From a virus: 61,766 nt of DNA. The stretch covers positions 1 to 61,766 of IMG/VR virus record IMGVR_UViG_3300043419_000690, one strand, 5' to 3'. A program made the translations under genes and the position numbers. Of the stretch, positions 43,230 through 61,766 are shown one piece after another (position 1 is the first letter of the stretch; each line of letters begins with the position of its first letter). The notes under the pieces are model-generated. The model was not told the DNA's origin. It saw only the letters and a list, made by a program, of their open reading frames with translations, and did not search any database.

Positions 43230-44681
43230 TTAAATTAACCACTCTTTTAAGTCTTCGCCAAGTACTTGGGAAGCGATATCAATTTTGCTACGTAATGCTT
43301 TGACGATGTGTTCATCCACCGTCTTCGTCGAAATTAGGTCAATATATGTGACTTTTTCAGTTTGACCGATCCTGTGAGCCCTGTCTTCGGACTGCAGGCG
43401 CTTCTCCAAATCAAAACTATTGCTGTAGTAAACGACCGTATGGGAGGACACAAGCGTCAATCCGTAGCCACCCGTAGTAGGATTTCCTACAAAAAAGCGT
43501 AACTCACTTTCCGGATCAGAAAACTTGTCAACAATATCCTGTCTATCGTCATTCTTGGTATCCCCGTAGTACGTAGCTACACTGGTCATGCCATATTCTT
43601 TTTGTATGGCCAGCTTGATATCTTCGATGTTCCTGCGGTAGTTTGCCCAGATGATAACTTTGCCGTCAGACTCAGCCAAGACAGACATCAGCTCATCGAT
43701 ACGATTATTAGGCAGCGCAATCTCTTGACCGTCATCCAACTTCACATAGCCACAGACAATCTGATGCAGGCGCATTAGCTGCGTCAATGCATTGGTGGTG
43801 GACATCATGCCCTGCTCCACAATAGACAGAGCCATCAGCTTCATCTGGTCATAGGCTTTTAGCTGTTCAGCGGTTAACTCTACATCCCGTCGCATGTAAA
43901 TCTTGTCCGGCAGATCAAGGCACTCGTCCTTCGTGACACGAAAGGCAAAGTTATCTAACTTTTCCTTTAGCTCATCCAACCTACGGTAGCCGACCACCTG
44001 CTTAAACGTATGGCTAGGCATCTTGCGTTCAACGAGGACCGCGTACCGCGCCTGAAACGTGTAGTAGTTCGTAGCACCCAAGTAATCGCCAGACAAGAAC
44101 TCGCACTGTGAGTACAAGTCAAGAGGGCTTTTCGTTACAGGAGAGCCAGTTGCAATGCGTCGGTATTTTGCATCTTTGCCAAGTTTCACTATGTTTTTTG
44201 TGCGTTTGGCGCTATGATTTTTAATCGTTGTGGACTCATCTATGGCCATAAACGTTTTCGTAACGCGAAGAAATGTCTTGGCGAAGGAGGTCCCTTTTTC
44301 TGTTGAAAATGCCTCTGTGTTCATGATCAAGATACGAAGATCATCAACCGCGTTCATCATCTCTTCCATCTCTACTTTCTCTGCTTTCTTTGGTGTTGGA
44401 TTCCAGCAAGCCATCTTATAACTAACATGATCCGGCATATGCTTGGGTATCTCAGACTTGTACCAGTTTCTGTACACACCCTTTGGTGCTACAACTAACA
44501 ACGCATTGATTCTGCCTTTGTCATAGAGCATCGCAGCGTTATTAATCAACATAAATGATTTACCTGTACCCATCTCTGCAAAGACAGCTACGCCTTCTTG
44601 CTCCCAGAAACGCTGTAGATATGCGCCCTGATGCACGAATGGTTTGTTCTTAAACGGGTACTTCTCAATAAAATAATCCAT
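43230..44681 (-). CDS. SNF2-like superfamily 2 helicase
   Basis: The 483-aa ATPase shows Walker A in EMGTGKS (about 36-42), motif Ia VVAPKGVYRNWY, motif II DEST in place of DEAH, GSPVTKSP (motif III), and a second domain with VIIWANYRRNIEDI, TTGGYGLTL and motif VI RLQSEDRAHRIGQ. This is the SNF2/Rad54-like pattern; such phage enzymes are thought to remodel or translocate on DNA during recombination or replication. It begins after a leader AGAAAGGAATAGAG like those in the right arm and is the first gene of a two-gene leftward operon. Confidence 0.88.
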   Translation of the reverse strand: MDYFIEKYPFKNKPFVHQGAYLQRFWEQEGVAVFAEMGTGKSFMLINNAAMLYDKGRINALLVVAPKGVYRNWYKSEIPKHMPDHVSYKMACWNPTPKKAEKVEMEEMMNAVDDLRILIMNTEAFSTEKGTSFAKTFLRVTKTFMAIDESTTIKNHSAKRTKNIVKLGKDAKYRRIATGSPVTKSPLDLYSQCEFLSGDYLGATNYYTFQARYAVLVERKMPSHTFKQVVGYRRLDELKEKLDNFAFRVTKDECLDLPDKIYMRRDVELTAEQLKAYDQMKLMALSIVEQGMMSTTNALTQLMRLHQIVCGYVKLDDGQEIALPNNRIDELMSVLAESDGKVIIWANYRRNIEDIKLAIQKEYGMTSVATYYGDTKNDDRQDIVDKFSDPESELRFFVGNPTTGGYGLTLVSSHTVVYYSNSFDLEKRLQSEDRAHRIGQTEKVTYIDLISTKTVDEHIVKALRSKIDIASQVLGEDLKEWLI

Positions 44682-44708
44682 CTCTATTCCTTTCTTTTAA
44701 ACAAGTGC

Positions 44709-44736: not shown

Positions 44737-44755
44737 ATGTTTACGTTTTAAGAAA
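44727..44755 (-). promoter_or_regulatory. Leftward promoter of the helicase-nuclease operon
   Basis: On the minus strand, TACAAT (44732-44727) lies 17 bases from TTTCTT (44755-44750). It is back to back with and overlaps the rightward promoter. The -35 match is weak. Confidence 0.45.
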
Positions 44756-44767
44756 GGAGAAAGAAAC

Positions 44768-54881: not shown

Positions 54882-54935
54882 TGCTTTCTCCCTTTCTTTA
54901 CGGTTTGTGTGCACAGTTTGTTTCTGTGTGGGATG

Positions 54936-55775: not shown

Positions 55776-56428
55776 TGTCTAAGAAGGACGTATGGAATGT
55801 TGCTCCGGTTCGGCTGAGTAAGACAGCCAAGCGGCTTGCTGCGCATGTTGCTCCTTTGAAAACATACAAGGAAAAGAAGCGTGTAGTAAATCCGAAGCAG
55901 TGGAAGTTTATTCAAGAGTATGTCTCTGGTGATGGGCACGTCACAATGAAAGAGGCTGCTATTCGTGCCGGATACAACGCTAAGAGCGCTTCCGTCATTG
56001 CTTGGCAGCTAACCAACCCTGAGATCAATCCGCACGTTGTAGCGGCTATACAAGAGTACAGGGCAGAGCTGGCATCAAAATACAATACGAACTATGAGCG
56101 CCATATGCGGGACTTGCAGATCATCCGCGATAAAGCTTTGGAATCTGGTGCCTATGCTGCAGCGGTACAGGCTGAATACAGGCGCGGACAGGCTTTGGGT
56201 ACCATTTATGTCGAGCGTAAAGAGATCAGGCATGGCACGATTGATTCAATGAGTAAGGAAGAGGTACAGCGCAAGCTTGAAGAGCTAAAGCGGTTGTACG
56301 GTGGTGGTGATCCTCCGCGTGCTTTGATTGATGCGCAAACAGGGGAAGTGATTGCCAGTATCGACCGCGAGCTTGATCCGCCTTTTGTGCCGCCAATAGA
56401 TATACCGGAAGATGGCGAGGAAGCCTGA
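55775..56428 (+). CDS. terS: Terminase small subunit
   Basis: The 217-aa protein has an N-terminal HTH-bearing DNA-binding domain (about 35-85: QWKFIQEYVSGDGHVTMKEA then AIRAGYNAKSASVIAWQLTN, PEIN) typical of the Terminase_2 family. A helical oligomerisation core (about 90-150) and an acidic Pro-rich tail (PPFVPPIDIPEDGEE) that may contact TerL follow. It recognises the packaging site. It is unusual in lying in the early arm, about 6 kb from terL and separated from it by many small genes. Confidence 0.85.
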   Translation: MSKKDVWNVAPVRLSKTAKRLAAHVAPLKTYKEKKRVVNPKQWKFIQEYVSGDGHVTMKEAAIRAGYNAKSASVIAWQLTNPEINPHVVAAIQEYRAELASKYNTNYERHMRDLQIIRDKALESGAYAAAVQAEYRRGQALGTIYVERKEIRHGTIDSMSKEEVQRKLEELKRLYGGGDPPRALIDAQTGEVIASIDRELDPPFVPPIDIPEDGEEA

Positions 56429-56834
56429 AGCTGTCTTCTCTGATTGGATCAGAGACGGACTAATTGACGTAGACATAACCCGCGTGGAATCGCGAGCTAG
56501 TCTAGGCTTTCCTGATATGGTGATTGTGGATAAATCAGGTACGGGCAAGGTTTGCTTCCTTGAAAACAAAGTGGTACAGCGCGGACTTAAAATTGATTTG
56601 AGGCCGCATCAAGTGTCTTTTTTGTTTAGGCACTGGAAGTACGGCTGCAGCACTTTTGTTCTTGTAAAGCACTTGCCAGTAGGCAAGCGTATAGCAATGA
56701 TTAACTTGTACTCTGGCGGCCAACTGATGGAACTGCTAGAGGACGGGCTACGGGTTGATCCTATATTCAGGTACCCATCAAACGGTATGGATTGGGAGCA
56801 GTTAACTAAAACGCTATTGGGTTTAGAGAATTGA
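56412..56834 (+). CDS. PD-(D/E)XK nuclease, resolvase-like, 140 aa
   Basis: The core GFPDMVIVD (PD motif) then VCFLENKVV (E-x-K) is the catalytic signature; an upstream Glu (AVFSDW, RVESRAS region) and a following basic helix complete it. Small stand-alone enzymes of this type (VRR-NUC or Holliday-junction resolvase-like) cut branched DNA. Overlap with terS (17 bases) suggests that it clears branches before packaging, as T4 endonuclease VII or T7 gp3 do. Confidence 0.75.
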   Translation: MARKPEAVFSDWIRDGLIDVDITRVESRASLGFPDMVIVDKSGTGKVCFLENKVVQRGLKIDLRPHQVSFLFRHWKYGCSTFVLVKHLPVGKRIAMINLYSGGQLMELLEDGLRVDPIFRYPSNGMDWEQLTKTLLGLEN

Positions 56835-56847
56835 TAGAAAAATACAA

Positions 56848-56876
56848 TTAGATATTCCTATACGGAACTATATAAT
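56848..56876 (+). promoter_or_regulatory. Right-arm promoter 1
   Basis: TTAGAT (56848-56853), 17-base spacer, TATAAT (56871-56876). The preceding 17-mer gatagaaaaatacaatt (56833-56849) is repeated upstream of another promoter at 59294. ACTGG/CCAGT (56884-56888, 56894-56898) forms a stem at the expected RNA 5' end, followed by 'atagaaaggatag'. Confidence 0.6.
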
Positions 56877-56919
56877 TGTCTTCACTGGATTAGCCAGTAC
56901 ACATAGAAAGGATAGCGAA

Positions 56920-57096
56920 ATGCCAAAATTTAGAATATATGGAAGTTATAGAGTCAATTTAGTTTTAGACATTGAAGCGGATACTTTGGATGATGCGTGG
57001 GGTATAGCAAACAATGCGGACGGTGGTGATTTTACGCGCCTTCCTGATTCAGATTCAGATTGGGAAATTAATGACGTGGCAGAGGTGCAACTATGA
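56920..57096 (+). CDS. Hypothetical protein, 58 aa
   Basis: MPKFRIYGSYRVNLVLDIEA and onward is acidic and beta-alpha in pattern, with DTLDDAWGIANNADGGDF. It resembles small phage proteins of the type '..v.l.i.A.s.eeA...a' of unknown function. A GAAAGGATAG leader gives the ribosome-binding site. ATGA overlap with the next gene. Confidence 0.65.
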   Translation: MPKFRIYGSYRVNLVLDIEADTLDDAWGIANNADGGDFTRLPDSDSDWEINDVAEVQL

Positions 57097-57275
57097 AACA
57101 GTCGCAATACGAAGTTTTATTTCTTGGTGATAACGTGTGGACGGTGGACGGCAAGCCCTGCGTGTTTAACTCTTGGGAAGAAGCGGAAGCAGAGCTAGAG
57201 GAAACCTTTTTGGATATGCGACTAGAGGATATCGACTACGAACCGATCGACTATAGAATAGCAGAGGTGAAATAA
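57093..57275 (+). CDS. Hypothetical protein, 60 aa
   Basis: QYEVLFLGDNVWTVDGKPCV then FNSWEEAEAELEETFLDMRL and a very acidic C-terminus. Overlaps both neighbours (ATGA, TAATG). DNA-mimic-like acidity is noted, but no function is assigned. Confidence 0.65.
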   Translation: MKQSQYEVLFLGDNVWTVDGKPCVFNSWEEAEAELEETFLDMRLEDIDYEPIDYRIAEVK

Positions 57276-57433
57276 TGGAATATAAGACAGTTGACGAATT
57301 ATTAGCAGAGGCTAATCAGGCTTTTTATAAATGGGAGAGCGCTTTTCCTTCCACAGGCTTAAGCGATGAAGATAGAATTATTTGGTGCATGGGTTATGTT
57401 TTTTGTATAGAGAGCGAAAGGAACACAAAATGA
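57275..57433 (+). CDS. Hypothetical protein, 52 aa
   Basis: MEYKTVDELLAEANQAFYKW and onward, helical, with IIWCMGYVFCIESER near the end. It overlaps the upstream stop by one base and the next start by four (ATGA). Function unknown. Confidence 0.6.
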   Translation: MEYKTVDELLAEANQAFYKWESAFPSTGLSDEDRIIWCMGYVFCIESERNTK

Positions 57434-57648
57434 TTATTAAAATGCAAGCGGAAGAGTTTAAAGAAGAGAAATTAATTCTTGTTAATTTTGACGGACACCA
57501 AAACGAGGAAACAGGTGCAACGCATCATGGCGGTTATGTGCGTATAGAGCAGGATACCGACTCGTTTTATGTAGTGATTATTAATTCACAGGGAGACGTT
57601 GTATCGGAAACAGAAATTCCTTTTAATTTTGTGGAAGCTGATATATAA
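57430..57648 (+). CDS. Hypothetical protein, 72 aa
   Basis: The ATG at 57430 has AAAGGA upstream and overlaps the previous stop; it is chosen over a start at 57382 inside the previous gene. Beta-rich, acidic (MIIKMQAEEFKEEKLILVNF, GGYVRIEQDTDSFYVVIINS). Function unknown. Its 3' end contains part of the next promoter. Confidence 0.65.
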   Translation: MIIKMQAEEFKEEKLILVNFDGHQNEETGATHHGGYVRIEQDTDSFYVVIINSQGDVVSETEIPFNFVEADI

Positions 57649-57649
57649 T
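57621..57649 (+). promoter_or_regulatory. Right-arm promoter 2
   Basis: Weak TTTTAA (57621-57626), 17-base spacer, consensus TATAAT (57644-57649). Followed by 'ctaattaacctagaaaggatagagag' before the ATG at 57688, almost the same leader as promoter 3. Confidence 0.6.
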
Positions 57650-57687
57650 TTCTACGCAGCACTAATTAACCTAGAAAGGATAGAGAG

Positions 57688-57861
57688 ATGAACGTTAAAA
57701 AGTTAATTGATTTACTTAGTGAGTTACCGCCTGATTTACCTGTTTTTATATGGATTGATGGCGACCGTTACCCTGTAGTCGATGTTGATGATTCGTGGGT
57801 TGACGAAGGCGGGCATGTTGATATTACCTCGGCATTAATTGAAAATTTTGGAGGATATTAA
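57688..57861 (+). CDS. Conserved small protein, 57 aa
   Basis: MNVKKLIDLLSELPPDLPVF and IWIDGDRYPVVDVDD match a common small phage protein pattern (V..LI..L..L.PDLPV....D). Function unknown. First gene after promoter 2, three bases upstream of the next gene. Confidence 0.7.
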   Translation: MNVKKLIDLLSELPPDLPVFIWIDGDRYPVVDVDDSWVDEGGHVDITSALIENFGGY

Positions 57862-57863
57862 TT

Positions 57864-58076
57864 ATGAATGAGAAAGAACAAGCGGCCTTTGTTGAGGCCT
57901 ATTCAAACAATGTGGCAAGTGCACCGAGTGATTATGTTGCGCAATTTGTTGCTCGTTATGAATCAGGTGAAGATATGCCATATTGTGAACACTACACGTC
58001 AATAATGGACGCGCTCGGCATGTGGCACGCAGCTATTCGTTTTAATTTGGAGGTGCTAAAAAATGTTAACCAATGA
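57864..58076 (+). CDS. Hypothetical protein, 70 aa
   Basis: EKEQAAFVEAYSNNVASAPS then DYVAQFVARYESGEDMPYCE; helical and acidic. Overlaps the next start by 14 bases. Function unknown. Confidence 0.65.
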   Translation: MNEKEQAAFVEAYSNNVASAPSDYVAQFVARYESGEDMPYCEHYTSIMDALGMWHAAIRFNLEVLKNVNQ

Positions 58077-58248
58077 AGCGCTTAAAACGCGTGCCCGCGC
58101 TATTGCAGAAATGCATTTTTATTCGGATGATGAATGCGAGGTTCCATGGGAACCATTTGAGGATTGGCCGGATGATGAAATTCAAGAACAGGTGGCCGAT
58201 ATGGCTCAAACTATTTTTATGGCGCTATTGTGGGCCAGAAATAGTTGA
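58063..58248 (+). CDS. Acidic hypothetical protein, 61 aa
   Basis: NEALKTRARAIAEMHFYSDD then ECEVPWEPFEDWPDDEIQEQ; GGAGG lies 8-12 bases before the ATG. Very acidic with many aromatic residues. Function unknown. Confidence 0.65.
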   Translation: MLTNEALKTRARAIAEMHFYSDDECEVPWEPFEDWPDDEIQEQVADMAQTIFMALLWARNS

Positions 58249-58256
58249 GGTATAAT
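58228..58256 (+). promoter_or_regulatory. Right-arm promoter 3
   Basis: TTGTGG (58228-58233), 17-base spacer, TATAAT (58251-58256), overlapping the end of the preceding gene. Leader 'cactattaacctagaaaggatagaga' before the ATG at 58295 is nearly the same as at promoter 2. Confidence 0.7.
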
Positions 58257-58294
58257 TACTACTCGGCACTATTAACCTAGAAAGGATAGAGATT

Positions 58295-59017
58295 ATGAAA
58301 CAGCTATTGAGTATTGATACGAACGCTAAAACCGTCAAAGGCCAAAAGCAGGGATACATGACAGGTATTTTATATCTGGCACCGTACAATTTGAGCGGAT
58401 ATCAGGTATGCCCTATGGCCAAAAAAGCAGGATGTATTGACGGGTGCCTGAACACTGCAGGCCGAGGCGCATTCAATTCTGTACAGCAGGCACGCATTAA
58501 TAAAACAAAGTACTTTTTTGAAAACCGCCAGCAATTTATGCTGGACTTAGCCGCGAGTATTGAGGCCTTAATTCGTAAAGCAAAGCGCGAAGGACTTTAT
58601 CCTACCGTTAGACTAAACGGCACAAGTGATATCAAGTGGGAAAATATTTCTTTTGACTATACTTTCGCGCATGGTAAACAGCGCGAAGTAACTATTTTCG
58701 AACTATTTCCAGAACTGCAATTCTATGACTACACTAAGACACCTAACCGCAAAAGTGTACCGGATAATTATGATCTGACTTTTAGCTACTCAGGCACTAA
58801 TACTTTTGCCAGAGAGGTAGAGCAAGCTTTCGACAATGGCGAACGCGTGGCCGTAGTGTTTAGAAATAAAGCAGATATACCGAATCACTTTGCAGGCCTT
58901 GAGTGTATCAACGGGGATGATTCTGATTTACGATTTTTGGAACCAAAAAATAAAGTAGTGGCCTTGTATGCGAAAGGAAAAGCGAAAAAGGATACTAGCG
59001 GCTTTGTGGTGGACTAA
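58295..59017 (+). CDS. GP88/DUF7227-like phage protein, 240 aa
   Basis: Contains GYMTGILYLAPYNLSGYQVC, PMAKKAGCIDGCLNTAGRGA, VQQARINKTKYFF, VRLNGTSDIKWENI and FRNKADIPNHFAGLECINGD. This is a conserved phage protein family that I recall as DUF7227 or gene product 88. Three clustered Cys near the N-terminus suggest a metal site; the biochemical role is unknown. It is the longest gene of its transcription unit. Confidence 0.7.
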   Translation: MKQLLSIDTNAKTVKGQKQGYMTGILYLAPYNLSGYQVCPMAKKAGCIDGCLNTAGRGAFNSVQQARINKTKYFFENRQQFMLDLAASIEALIRKAKREGLYPTVRLNGTSDIKWENISFDYTFAHGKQREVTIFELFPELQFYDYTKTPNRKSVPDNYDLTFSYSGTNTFAREVEQAFDNGERVAVVFRNKADIPNHFAGLECINGDDSDLRFLEPKNKVVALYAKGKAKKDTSGFVVD

Positions 59018-59019
59018 CT

Positions 59020-59088
59020 ATGTTCTTACTATTAATCGTTGTTTTCGCGCTTTTGTACTTCTTTTTAGACTGGTTCGGTGTAGATTAG
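59020..59088 (+). CDS. 22-aa membrane peptide
   Basis: An ATG two bases after the previous stop begins MFLLLIVVFALLYFFLDWFG and ends VD. It is one perfect hydrophobic helix with a short acidic-aromatic end, like single-pass regulatory peptides. A weak GGTGG site is present. It could be chance, but composition and placement favour a gene. Confidence 0.4.
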   Translation: MFLLLIVVFALLYFFLDWFGVD

Positions 59089-59383
59089 TTAAGTAAGTAT
59101 ATATTGTGACTAGATTGGCATAAACACAGGCGATTAGCCTATTTTGTGACTGATCAGTCACTTTATATACACATAGTTAAACCTGTCCCCTCGTCTCTGG
59201 CGCTCGCTGCGTGTAACGTGGCGCGTGGTGCTCGGCACGCGAGCCGCGTGCCGTTGCGCTGGCATTATGTCTCGCTATCGGCCGCTCGCGGCCGATAGAA
59301 AAATACAATTTGTGCTTTCCGCACGCTTCCGGCACAATAGTTCCTGTCTCGCAATTGTGCGGACAATAGAAAGGGAGAAAGTA
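59089..59383. other. Non-coding region with three perfect hairpins
   Basis: Contains the 16-base palindrome GTGACTGATCAGTCAC (59146-59161) followed by TTTATATA. It also has CGGCACGCG/CGCGTGCCG (59233-59241 and 59245-59253) and an 11-bp stem, 59275-59285 with 59288-59298, around TC. Promoter 4 follows the last hairpin. The middle (59190-59300) is strongly GC-rich. No gene is seen. Confidence 0.65.
59310..59338 (+). promoter_or_regulatory. Right-arm promoter 4
   Basis: TTGTGC (59310-59315), 17-base spacer, CACAAT (59333-59338). The 17-mer gatagaaaaatacaatt (59294-59310) directly upstream is the same as at promoter 1 and sits where an UP element would be. TTGTGC and GCACAA form an inverted repeat across the core. 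Confidence 0.5.
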
Positions 59384-59557
59384 ATGAGCGATTATTCAAT
59401 ACTGGCAGTGCTAATGAGACGCGATGGATTAACCAGAAGCGAAGCGCAAGAATTGATTGACGAGGCGCGTGAACTAGTAGCAGAGGGCGAGAGTCCAGAG
59501 AGAATTTTGCGTGTCGAATTCGGGCTAGAGCCCGACTACATTTTCGACTTGCTGTAG
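59384..59557 (+). CDS. Conserved small protein, 57 aa
   Basis: The ATG follows AAGGGAG in an 'atagaaagggagaaag' leader. MSDYSILAVLMRRDGLTRSE then AQELIDEARELVAEGESPER and FGLEPDYIFDLL match a small protein widespread in phages (RDG..R.EA...+.E...RV..G.DPE.+L...FGLEPDYI.DLL). Function unknown. Confidence 0.75.
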   Translation: MSDYSILAVLMRRDGLTRSEAQELIDEARELVAEGESPERILRVEFGLEPDYIFDLL

Positions 59558-59567
59558 GGAGGCGACA

Positions 59568-59726
59568 ATGAGCGATCATGATGAAACAGTGCCCGCTCGC
59601 GGGCACTGGACGGACGAAGAAATTAATCATTATTACGACAGCCACCTGAACATGACACTGCGCGAGCTTGCCTCGCTCACTGGCTATAGCGTTCAGAAAT
59701 TAAAAAAAATATTAATGGGGGAATAA
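59568..59726 (+). CDS. Small HTH-like protein, 52 aa
   Basis: GGGAGGCGAC precedes the ATG. The C-terminal half NMTLRELASLTGYSVQKLKK has helix-turn-helix spacing. A perfect 10-bp hairpin with loop TC (59587-59608) lies inside the coding sequence near the start. May be a small regulator. It overlaps the next gene by one base. Confidence 0.65.
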   Translation: MSDHDETVPARGHWTDEEINHYYDSHLNMTLRELASLTGYSVQKLKKILMGE

Positions 59727-59884
59727 TGCAACCTTATTATTTTTGCTTCCGCGTGGGCAATGTAACGCACGCGGGCGAATTCTGGTCGAGCGACCGGAAG
59801 CATGTTGAAGCGATGATCAAACGCGGGCATCCGGACGCGTACCATATCGCTATCTGGAAACAATTTATGACATGGGGGAAATAA
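59726..59884 (+). CDS. Hypothetical protein, 52 aa
   Basis: MQPYYFCFRVGNVTHAGEFW then SSDRKHVEAMIKRGHPDAYH; overlaps both neighbours by one base (TAATG). Function unknown. Confidence 0.65.
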   Translation: MQPYYFCFRVGNVTHAGEFWSSDRKHVEAMIKRGHPDAYHIAIWKQFMTWGK

Positions 59885-60222
59885 TGAAAAAACAATTTGA
59901 CTATATCCAGGATCCAGGACACGGTTGGGTGAAGGTGCCGTTCGAGTTACTCCGCGAGCTAGGGATCGCGGATAAAATAACGCACTACTCTTATTACAAT
60001 CTCGGGCAGGTATATCTGGAAGAGGATAACGACACGTGCACCTTTATGAATGCTTATCATGCTCGCTTCGGTTTTGATCCGAAGCTTCGCGACCGTGTCG
60101 CACGCGAGCGCCGTTCCCGCGTGCGTGGATACCTGCCATATAATTTTGAGATGGTAACTAATGTGAAAAGAATACAAGCGCACGCTGACTATATATTTGT
60201 TGACACGCGGCAACAAGCTTGA
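59884..60222 (+). CDS. Conserved phage protein, 112 aa
   Basis: The ATG at 59884 overlaps the previous stop, favouring it over 59872. Contains DYIQDPGHGWVKVPFELLRE and LGIADKITHYSYYNLGQVYL with EEDND, a pattern known from many phages. The C-terminus VDTRQQA is nearly the same as in the gene ending at 60919 because a promoter is embedded there. Function unknown. Confidence 0.7.
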   Translation: MKKQFDYIQDPGHGWVKVPFELLRELGIADKITHYSYYNLGQVYLEEDNDTCTFMNAYHARFGFDPKLRDRVARERRSRVRGYLPYNFEMVTNVKRIQAHADYIFVDTRQQA

Positions 60223-60228
60223 TATATT
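60200..60228 (+). promoter_or_regulatory. Right-arm promoter 5 (consensus)
   Basis: TTGACA (60200-60205), exact 17-base spacer, TATATT (60223-60228). The -35 and spacer lie in the last codons of the upstream gene. The 25-base palindrome 60231-60255 starts at the expected RNA 5' end, followed by 'actagaaagggatagcg'. Confidence 0.85.
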
Positions 60229-60230
60229 AA

Positions 60231-60255
60231 TGACTGGCTGCAGTGCAGCCAGTCA
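60231..60255 (+). promoter_or_regulatory. 5'-end stem-loop of promoter 5 transcript
   Basis: Arms 60231-60242 and 60244-60255 are exact reverse complements. Because the -10 ends at 60228, the transcript should begin within the first arm, giving an RNA with a 5'-terminal hairpin just before the ribosome-binding site. Confidence 0.65.
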
Positions 60256-60277
60256 ATTAAACTAGAAAGGGATAGCG

Positions 60278-60559
60278 ATGGAAAAATATAACGGTTGGAC
60301 TAACTACGCAACGTGGCGCGTGAACCTCGAGATTTTTGACGGCATGGACTTGCATGACTTCGGATCGGTTGACATGAAGGACTTGTACAATCTAACCCAA
60401 ATGGTCGAAGAGTATGCGACCGATATAATTGAATGCAGCAGCGAAGCAGGACTGGCAAGAGACTATGCTCTTTGTTTTTTGCAGGAAGTAAACTGGAAAG
60501 AAATCACGCAGGCTTTGGTTGATTGTGTCGCTAATCTACGGGGAGAAGAAACATGCTAA
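60278..60559 (+). CDS. DUF7249-like protein, 93 aa
   Basis: EKYNGWTNYATWRVNLEIFD is the signature of a common phage protein family that I recall as DUF7249. The remainder is acidic and helical (MVEEYATDIIECSSEAGLAR). Function unknown. Expressed from promoter 5. Confidence 0.75.
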   Translation: MEKYNGWTNYATWRVNLEIFDGMDLHDFGSVDMKDLYNLTQMVEEYATDIIECSSEAGLARDYALCFLQEVNWKEITQALVDCVANLRGEETC

Positions 60560-60759
60560 GACACCACGAGTTAGCACACTCACTCAAGTGCTCACTGTTC
60601 GCGGATCGCGGCACTGATATCAATGCCGCATACGATTATCTGTTGATGGTAGCGAATGCGAGCGATCATCCACCTGCAGTGCTCACAGCAGCGCATGTAC
60701 TAGTTAACACTATTTGCAATGCATTGTTGATGGACGAGGTGCAAGATGAAACCGTTTGA
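60553..60759 (+). CDS. Hypothetical protein, 68 aa
   Basis: LRHHELAHSLKCSLFADRGT then DINAAYDYLLMVANASDHPP; mostly helical. Overlaps the upstream stop by seven bases and the next start by 14. Function unknown. Confidence 0.65.
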   Translation: MLRHHELAHSLKCSLFADRGTDINAAYDYLLMVANASDHPPAVLTAAHVLVNTICNALLMDEVQDETV

Positions 60760-60919
60760 AAAATATACCGCGCACGATCCTGAAACAGGAACGACCTTCA
60801 CGTTTGATTGCGTGCAAGATTTAATCGACTGGTCTACTATCTTATTTAGTCAAAACGTTGATATTAAAAAGTACAAGATCAAGCGCGAAATATTAGTTGA
60901 CACGCAGCAACAAGCTTGA
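60746..60919 (+). CDS. Hypothetical protein, 57 aa
   Basis: MKPFEKYTAHDPETGTTFTF then DCVQDLIDWSTILFSQNVDI and a basic KKYKIKREI. It ends VDTQQQA, nearly matching VDTRQQA of the 112-aa protein because both ends carry the same embedded promoter. Function unknown. Confidence 0.65.
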   Translation: MKPFEKYTAHDPETGTTFTFDCVQDLIDWSTILFSQNVDIKKYKIKREILVDTQQQA

Positions 60920-60925
60920 TATAGT
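60897..60925 (+). promoter_or_regulatory. Right-arm promoter 6 (consensus)
   Basis: TTGACA (60897-60902), exact 17-base spacer, TATAGT (60920-60925). The sequence from -35 to -10 differs from promoter 5 at only one base before the last bases of the -10, indicating a duplicated element. Confidence 0.82.
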
Positions 60926-60929
60926 TCAC

Positions 60930-60955
60930 TCACTGGCTGCAGTCGCAGCCAGTGA
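60930..60955 (+). promoter_or_regulatory. 5'-end stem-loop of promoter 6 transcript
   Basis: Arms 60930-60940 and 60945-60955 pair perfectly around AGTC. The predicted RNA start (about 60932) falls in the first arm, as at promoter 5. 'acctagaaagtgagaaag' and the ATG at 60983 follow. Confidence 0.65.
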
Positions 60956-60982
60956 ACCTAACCTAGAAAGTGAGAAAGCAAA

Positions 60983-61264
60983 ATGAAAACTGTACGCACA
61001 ATCGGCTTAAACGGTGGATCACTCATCATTCCATCAGGCATGACCGAGCGTGAATTAATCACGCTCATTGGTACACTCGCTATCATGCAGCGAGTCGATT
61101 CGGTATATAGCAAGGACTACGATGCGACCTATTCTTATGCCACTGGTACAGCATCAGTAAATATCAGTGAAGCGCAAGTGTACGATACAGTCGAGCAAGC
61201 AAAGGCTGCGCGTGACGAGTACAACGCAGCACTGGACAAGAAAAAGGAAACTGAGCTGGCATAG
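60983..61264 (+). CDS. 93-aa hypothetical protein (complete copy)
   Basis: MKTVRTIGLNGGSLIIPSGM then TERELITLIGTLAIMQRVDS and a Lys/Glu-rich C-terminus. It is the complete version of the gene truncated at the left end of the window, transcribed from promoter 6. Variation between the two copies is mainly silent. Function unknown. Confidence 0.75.
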   Translation: MKTVRTIGLNGGSLIIPSGMTERELITLIGTLAIMQRVDSVYSKDYDATYSYATGTASVNISEAQVYDTVEQAKAARDEYNAALDKKKETELA

Positions 61265-61597
61265 TCCACACCTATCGCTGCTCGCGCAGCGATAGGAATA
61301 AATAGCTTGACATATAGGCAGGCGCAGCCTGCCTATATCACCGCTCCCTGCCGCCGCCTCTCCCTGTTGCTAACTTGCTATGCTGCATTGCAGCTTGACA
61401 ATCTGCCCGCTGCAGCGGGCAGATTAAGGTCTAGTGAAGGGGGGAGGGCCATTTTAGGTACGGTTCGACTAAGCTCAACTTCGCCTCTGTTTTACACAAA
61501 CATAGGACCTGGCAAAAGGTGACCCCCACCCAGCCCCTCCCCATAAAACCACCCCCTTGTTTGTAAAACTCGTACAGCGGGTGTATATTATTAAATT
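61265..61597. other. Right copy of the hairpin-rich non-coding region
   Basis: Equivalent to 273-605. Hairpins 61271-61296, 61313-61337 and 61400-61425 are unchanged, whereas substitutions fall between them. The C20 tract of the left copy reads here as C-rich with A, AG and T interruptions (61523-61542). Confidence 0.75.
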
Positions 61598-61766
61598 ATG
61601 AAACCTGAAGACATTGAAGCAGAACAACTACGCCTGGAACTCCGGCTCCGCGTCCTCGAAGCGCGGTCCTTGGCCACCGCAACATTCTTAGACTTCTGCA
61701 AATACGTGTGGCCTGAAATGTTGGTCGGCGAGCATCACATCAAGATTGCTGAAGCGTTGGATCGTG
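61598..61766 (+). CDS. terL: 5' fragment of terL (partial, right copy)
   Basis: The first 56 codons of terL, cut off by the window end. Three differences from the left copy, all silent. This is not a second gene: it is the same gene reached again after one genome length. Confidence 0.95.
   Translation, partial: MKPEDIEAEQLRLELRLRVLEARSLATATFLDFCKYVWPEMLVGEHHIKIAEALDR

Follow-up and report, generated by a model that had tools for sequence, protein, structure and literature searches.

A repeated promoter, stem-loop and leader cassette ahead of small gene units in the right arm of an aquatic phage genome

Is the right arm of a phage genome read as one long operon, or does each of its small gene units carry a start signal of its own? 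The question was raised by the 61,766-base IMG/VR record IMGVR_UViG_3300043419_000690 (positions 1 to 61,766, single strand, 5' to 3'; this whole stretch is called the window below). A preliminary description had placed six promoters with identical 17-bp spacing in its right arm, at 56848, 57621, 58228, 59310, 60200 and 60897, each followed by a shared leader, and had taken them for a repeated expression cassette that heads small gene units and lets them be inserted or exchanged. We found that the cassette signature is real and widely shared by a set of phages from lakes and the sea, in whose genomes it occupies the most variable part; its function is predicted. Our favoured explanation, to which we assign a probability of roughly 0.64, is a lineage-specific unit-start cassette composed of a sigma-70-type promoter, a frequent stem-loop, a fixed leader with an extended Shine-Dalgarno sequence, and an ATG.

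The leader carries much of this evidence. TAGAAAGG was found on the plus strand at 56904, 57672, 58278, 59367 and 60263, at all five positions inside the proposed cassettes, and zero copies were found on the minus strand. The sixth leader copy (60963) reads CTAGAAAGTG. When the window was simulated 60 times with a Markov model, TAGAAAGG followed by an ATG occurred with a mean of 0.23 and a maximum of 2, compared with 5 observed; the shared leader is thus real and not a product of chance. In two copies (57665 and 58271) a 22-nt sequence, ATTAACCTAGAAAGGATAGAGA, is exactly the same. The leader is made up of an 8-10 nt match to the tail of the 16S ribosomal RNA (rRNA) and a conserved GATAGAG. CTAGAAAGGA is complementary to the 16S rRNA tail of, for example, Burkholderiales, in whose records the tail CACCTCCTTTCTAGAG is exact, but since related tails exist in other groups the match does not identify the host. 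For the first genes behind the cassettes the match to this tail is 8-10 nt long, and for most of the phage's remaining genes 3-7 nt.

Relatives were collected via the protein similarity of GP88, TerL and TerS, and via the leader. Loci spanning the nuclease gene to terL numbered 105, of which 42 were non-redundant, with a gap of about 3-7 kb. In nearly all 42 non-redundant IMG/VR relatives the commonest 9-mers by the start codons were pieces of [T/C]AGA[A/G]AGGATAGAG. The leader was mostly present in 3-7 copies per locus, with zero copies on the other strand in the 42 loci, a frequency somewhat inflated by the leader-based retrieval of part of the set, most TerL and TerS matches having been found otherwise. 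When viral contigs were scanned with the 16-mer CTAGAAAGGATAGAGA, 105 stretches were obtained, most of which showed a -10-like box, a perfect stem-loop of varying sequence, CAACC, the leader and an ATG. Distant BLAST searches with a synthetic consensus cassette returned chance matches only. The 18-mer AACCTAGAAAGGATAGAG, of which bacterial genomes are almost free, had 2 matches in the whole genome collection. We rejected the idea that the leader resides in prophages or bacteria: one match lay in a stretch without a -10 box or hairpin, and the other was the cassette of a viral contig (L035), on a contig binned as Armatimonadetes. A contig in an Armatimonadetes metagenome-assembled genome (L191) bears a phage cassette, likely through binning of phage DNA.

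Cultured relatives have different leaders in the same place, where they recur ahead of small genes of the terS-terL region. HTVC023P carries five copies of AACTAACAAA within its first 50 kb, HTVC027P three of AGAAAGGTAT and DSL-LC04 four of CATAC[A/T]GGAGAAA. Ahead of gp36 in HTVC027P (L346:19225-19290), TTGACA and the leader AACTAGAAAGGTATA flank a -10 region that is enclosed by a long AT-rich inverted repeat. In open-licence full text we found no published description of the leaders of this lineage or of those of HTVC023P-type phages and DSL-LC04.

The promoters of the window were of unequal quality. At 60200 and 60897, TTGACA is followed after 17 bp by TATATT and TATAGT, respectively, and 11 of the 12 bases agree with the consensus. 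A perfect TATAAT was found at 56848, 57621 and 58228, where the -35 boxes match only 2-3 of the six consensus bases at 17 bp, and the promoter at 59310 is TTGTGC-17-CACAAT. For the first promoter, the register starting at 56849 with a 16-bp spacer outscored that with 17 bp. Given such weak -35 boxes, the 17-base spacing in the window is partly a choice of register. A usable -35 box was detected in 87 of the 147 cassettes of relatives, with spacers of 15-19 bp (18 bp in 28, 17 bp in 26 and 16 bp in 19 cassettes). The claim of identical 17-bp promoters is weaker than that of the leader, two being near-consensus and four having poor -35 boxes, and with the relatives mainly at 16-18 bp a fixed 17-bp spacer was ruled out as a defining trait. 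The overlap of four promoters with the preceding gene (57621, 58228, 60200 and 60897) was reproduced. Directly upstream of two promoters an identical 17-mer, GATAGAAAAATACAATT, is present (56833-56849 and 59294-59310), variants of which (ATAGAAAAAATCAATTGG) recur upstream of the cassettes of many relatives; it is possibly an UP-like element.

Sigma-70-like matches in 50-61.8 kb numbered 28, compared with 19 +/- 4 in shuffles, so that the promoter calls by themselves carry little weight. When tied to the leader the signal was larger: a -10 box with at least 5 of 6 matching bases preceded 70% of the leader-headed starts, compared with 28% of the remaining starts and 12% in shuffled sequence. The bare promoter count would suit an ordinary explanation, namely strong ribosome sites together with AT-rich promoter-like matches that arise by chance in a dense small-gene region. 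We regard this as very improbable, because the leader count, strand bias, lineage-wide recurrence and -10 enrichment, as well as the covariation described below, far exceed their controls, and the covariation and k-mer tests contradict it.

Between the -10 box and the leader four of the six window cassettes carry a stem-loop, which the preliminary description had missed. All are on the plus strand: a weak one at 56884-56898 (ACTGG-attag-CCAGT) and clear ones at 59345-59365, 60231-60255 and 60930-60955, the last with 11 bp. Stems of at least 8 perfect pairs were present at 24% of 258 non-redundant leaders, compared with 0.3% when the 5' halves were swapped between cassettes and 0.14% in shuffled sequence. 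In one spacing class of 11 sequences, which was picked by spacing and not by per-sequence pairing but is the spacing class with the strongest signal, two-sided changes were found in 8 of 8 pairs, and the covariation was 0.614, compared with 0.219 when shuffled and at most 0.136 with a slid partner. The same kind of change was observed in the closest ortholog: in L193 (TerL 98% identical) the counterpart of the 60200 cassette reads ACTCGGTGCA...TGCACCGAGT, against ACTGGCTGCA...TGCAGCCAGT in the window, a difference of two base-pair changes, both compensated. Stems are no more alike within one phage (2.37/7) than between phages (2.46/7), which argues that the structure is kept and not one sequence. 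They mostly start 4-7 nt after the -10 box, near the expected transcription start. A search of 56000-61766 against Rfam gave no family at its gathering threshold. An intrinsic terminator was rejected as well: after the two strong cassette stems come ATTAAAC and ACCTAACC, with no T run, and none of the stems appears in the terminator list.

In relatives a second covarying palindrome was found in the spacer between -35 and -10, with at least 8 pairs in 14%, compared with 0.4% in the null. Spacer palindromes with differing arms were seen in about 14-20% of promoters, for example at L006:4174, L009:4113, L027:5890 and L033:5735. This second palindrome is the chief support for reading the repeats as DNA operators, in which a repressor of phage or host would bind the inverted repeat over the start and co-control all units, as proposed for the extended start-associated sequences (ESAS) of mycobacteriophages. 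Such binding would also fit the overlap of the palindromes with promoter and start, the spacer-palindrome arms that are common to several copies in L006 and L009, and the ACTGG/CCAGT that the three clearest stems of the window have in common. The stem arms, however, differ as much within a phage as between phages, unlike the operator of a single protein, two window cassettes are without any palindrome, and the two-sided changes preserve pairing. We consider operators an unlikely explanation. The spacer palindrome of some relatives also recalls hairpin promoters read by a phage RNA polymerase, like the virion polymerase of N4, to which we give hardly any credence: the boxes are sigma-70-like, and among the ten proteins scanned the only polymerase-like family was DNA polymerase A. 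The RNA_pol profile PF00940 had no match in the record, but its positive control was silent too, so this is not proof of absence.

Gene content behind the cassettes differed between relatives. In two of them (L100 and L111) the second gene of the window (57093) comes directly behind the cassette that follows the nuclease gene. Behind the 57621 cassette, before a shared gene at 57864, the window has one gene, L111 has two other genes and L100 has none. Across 53 loci, 17 gene families follow the post-nuclease leader. Among the eligible junctions of the 105 loci, 42 of 62 leader junctions were interrupted in some relative, compared with 16 of 44 plain junctions (Fisher p = 0.0017), counts that are indicative, given a simple caller of open reading frames, the relatedness of the loci and the tolerance of intergenic gaps for insertions in general. 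The turnover test does not separate a cassette that lets units be exchanged from insertions that survive in intergenic gaps. Genes also turn over inside units (57275 is absent from L111 and L100), and neighbours were retained more often across a cassette (0.36) than within a unit (0.13), apparently because core right-arm genes stand in a fixed order, each with its own cassette. We concluded that small gene units do begin with a repeated expression cassette, and that they lie where the genome is rebuilt from relative to relative. Of the proposed exchange, the enrichment of turnover at leaders and the differing contents behind cassettes stood, whereas units as exchange modules were rejected, the adjacency test having gone the opposite way.

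The same turnover could point to a leader that is mainly a recombination linker, a boundary sequence providing short homology for gene exchange, with expression as a by-product. This would agree with the enrichment of gain and loss at leader junctions, the many families behind one cassette, the RecE-like exonuclease encoded by the phage and the conservation that extends past the Shine-Dalgarno pairing. We judge it improbable: 16-20 nt are short for homologous recombination, adjacency is better kept across cassettes than within units, insertions are tolerated in gaps in any case, and the -10 placement, covarying hairpin and 16S match would be left unexplained.

Under the favoured unit-start cassette, a host sigma-70-type promoter would be followed, in many copies, by a stem-loop with its 5' edge near the expected start, then by a fixed single-stranded CAACC-TAGAAAGG-ATAGAG and the ATG. 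The first part of the leader, through its match to the 16S tail, would act as the extended Shine-Dalgarno sequence. The host RNA polymerase would presumably transcribe each small right-arm unit separately. The near-terminal hairpin may slow decay that depends on the 5' end, and may keep the ribosome site clear of pairing with upstream sequence; in Escherichia coli a 5'-terminal stem-loop stabilises messenger RNA (mRNA) and impedes RppH (Emory, Bouvet and Belasco 1992, cited in PMC3997798). The long Shine-Dalgarno sequence would load ribosomes strongly on the first gene, the later genes of a unit having short or overlapping sites. Newly gained genes could settle beside leaders, since a leader would give any gene behind it a start signal. 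In HTVC027P, RNA sequencing (RNA-seq) revealed temporal classes in a discontinuous, mosaic arrangement (PMC12753301), which fits many separate promoters.

Several observations weigh against this explanation. The -35 boxes are poor in four of the six window cassettes. The hairpin is not obligatory, as none was found in the cassettes at 57621 and 58228 and the stem at 56848 has only 5 bp, nor is it exclusive to cassettes: hairpins of at least 8 pairs also occur upstream of 21% of leaderless starts, compared with 36% of leader-headed ones. With a start 7 nt after the -10 box, as many as about 3 of the outermost pairs would be left out of the transcript in some stems. Finally, GATAGAG is conserved without potential to pair with 16S rRNA, so the extended Shine-Dalgarno sequence is not the whole story.

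We tentatively propose, at somewhat less than even odds, that HTVC023P-related aquatic phages have a general architecture not described before, in which each lineage has a private many-copy cassette of promoter, covarying 5' hairpin and lineage-specific leader. It would mark a hypervariable slot for small, probably early genes of host takeover or counter-defence and, if true, would allow newly acquired genes to be expressed at once. As HTVC027P is cultured and has an RNA-seq series of infection, the plan is directly testable by mapping start sites, and the many natural stem variants are on offer for asking whether a 5' hairpin protects phage mRNA.

The six cassettes all lie on the plus strand. 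The first (56848-56919) heads 56920-57096, with TATAAT at 56871-56876, a weak -35 box read as TTAGAT (17 bp) or TAGATA (16 bp), and the leader TAGAAAGGATAG at 56904-56915; it recurs in L100 and L111 with changes in the loop. The second (57621-57687) heads 57688-57861, its -10 box (57644-57649) overlaps the stop codon of 57430-57648, and its leader CTAGAAAGGATAGAGA lies at 57671-57686. The third (58228-58294) heads the GP88 gene 58295-59017, with TTGTGG at 58228-58233, the -10 box at 58251-58256 and the leader CTAGAAAGGATAGAGA at 58277-58292. The fourth (59294-59383) begins with the upstream element GATAGAAAAATACAATT and heads 59384-59557, with TTGTGC at 59310-59315, CACAAT at 59333-59338 and the leader TAGAAAGGGAG from 59367. 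The fifth (60200-60277) heads the DUF7249 gene 60278-60559, with TTGACA at 60200-60205, TATATT at 60223-60228 and the leader CTAGAAAGGGATAG from 60262. The sixth (60897-60982) heads 60983-61264, with TTGACA at 60897-60902, TATAGT at 60920-60925 and the leader CTAGAAAGTGAG from 60963. The promoter parts of the last two are 94% identical over 34 nt. Eight of the 11 copies of AGAAAGG in the window closely precede a start codon; of these, five lie in the right arm and three elsewhere, at 44751 (plus), 44695 (minus) and 54897 (minus); the leader is thus not limited to the right arm. At 44682-44702 (minus) AGAAAGGAATAGAG lies ahead of the gene for an SNF2-type helicase (43230-44681), with the RecE-like exonuclease gene downstream, AAGAAAGGAGAAAG at 44745-44767 (plus) belongs to the divergent unit, and AAAGAAAGGGAGAAAGCA at 54882-54900 (minus) lies ahead of a minus-strand small-gene cluster.

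The ends of the contig (1-774 and 60993-61766) overlap over 774 bases with 96% identity and no gaps. This probably reflects strain variation in the assembly of a closed or permuted genome and not a true terminal repeat; a poly-C difference was noted near 534-550. From the gapless overlap we take the genome to be probably closed and about 60,992 bp long, with the right arm continuing into terL (606-2066). Between the last right-arm gene and terL three GC-rich perfect hairpins were observed at 61271-61425 (copy at 279-433), two of them directly following AGCTTGACA, with neither gene nor leader attached. A small nuclease/helicase-like gene (phrog_2165; 56412-56834, plus) forms the left border of the hypervariable region. 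The genome encodes PolA, a UvrD helicase and a primase besides the SNF2-type helicase and RecE-like exonuclease. By TerL, the nearest named phages are DSL-LC04 from a lake (63%), 023Pt_psg01 (56%) and the pelagiphages HTVC027P and HTVC023P (52-55%); a megablast comparison of the right-arm region with named phages gave no match. Gene 58295-59017 matches PF17338 (GP88) and gene 60278 matches PF23907 (DUF7249), and a search of ten of the small genes for family names in NCBIfam gave no match. A family with 'TPWHGLGQQL', which may be DUF932-like (assigned with no profile search), occurs in 97 of the 105 relatives and seems to be missing from the window, which has the GP88 gene with its own cassette.

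The closest described architecture is that of the start-associated sequences (SAS) and ESAS of cluster K mycobacteriophages, and the aquatic cassette would work alike without being a member. Both have many copies of a short asymmetric sequence just upstream of starts, mostly in one orientation and at non-structural genes, both sequences are conserved beyond the Shine-Dalgarno pairing, and in both a subset has an upstream inverted repeat and a SigA-like promoter. The phages are unrelated, however, and the SAS is a 13-bp GGGATAGGAGCCC a few nt upstream of starts, whereas the aquatic leader is AGAAAGGATAGAG. The repeat of ESAS (PMC3203893) is a 17-bp imperfect inverted repeat with a subcluster consensus and no RNA pairing; the aquatic arms covary, differ between copies and sit between the -10 box and the leader. 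ESAS has -35 and -10 hexamers 17-18 bp apart; in the aquatic cassettes the -10 box is clearly enriched and a -35 box is usable in 87 of 147, at spacers of 15-19 bp. Stabilisers of the ompA/papA type (PMC3997798) likewise place a hairpin at the 5' end or close to it, ahead of a ribosome site that is single-stranded, but the aquatic hairpin is a repeated, many-copy phage feature with a variable stem, and its stabilising effect is putative. HTVC023P-type pelagiphages and DSL-LC04 have a repeated right-arm leader too, lineage-specific in sequence. In archaeal viruses one promoter-proximal motif similarly marks scattered small variable genes; there the promoters are archaeal, and expression timing and function are known. 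Since these conserved early regulatory sequences served to find anti-defence genes in archaeal viruses (PMC11065993), the aquatic cassette may be a bait for small early genes in the same way.

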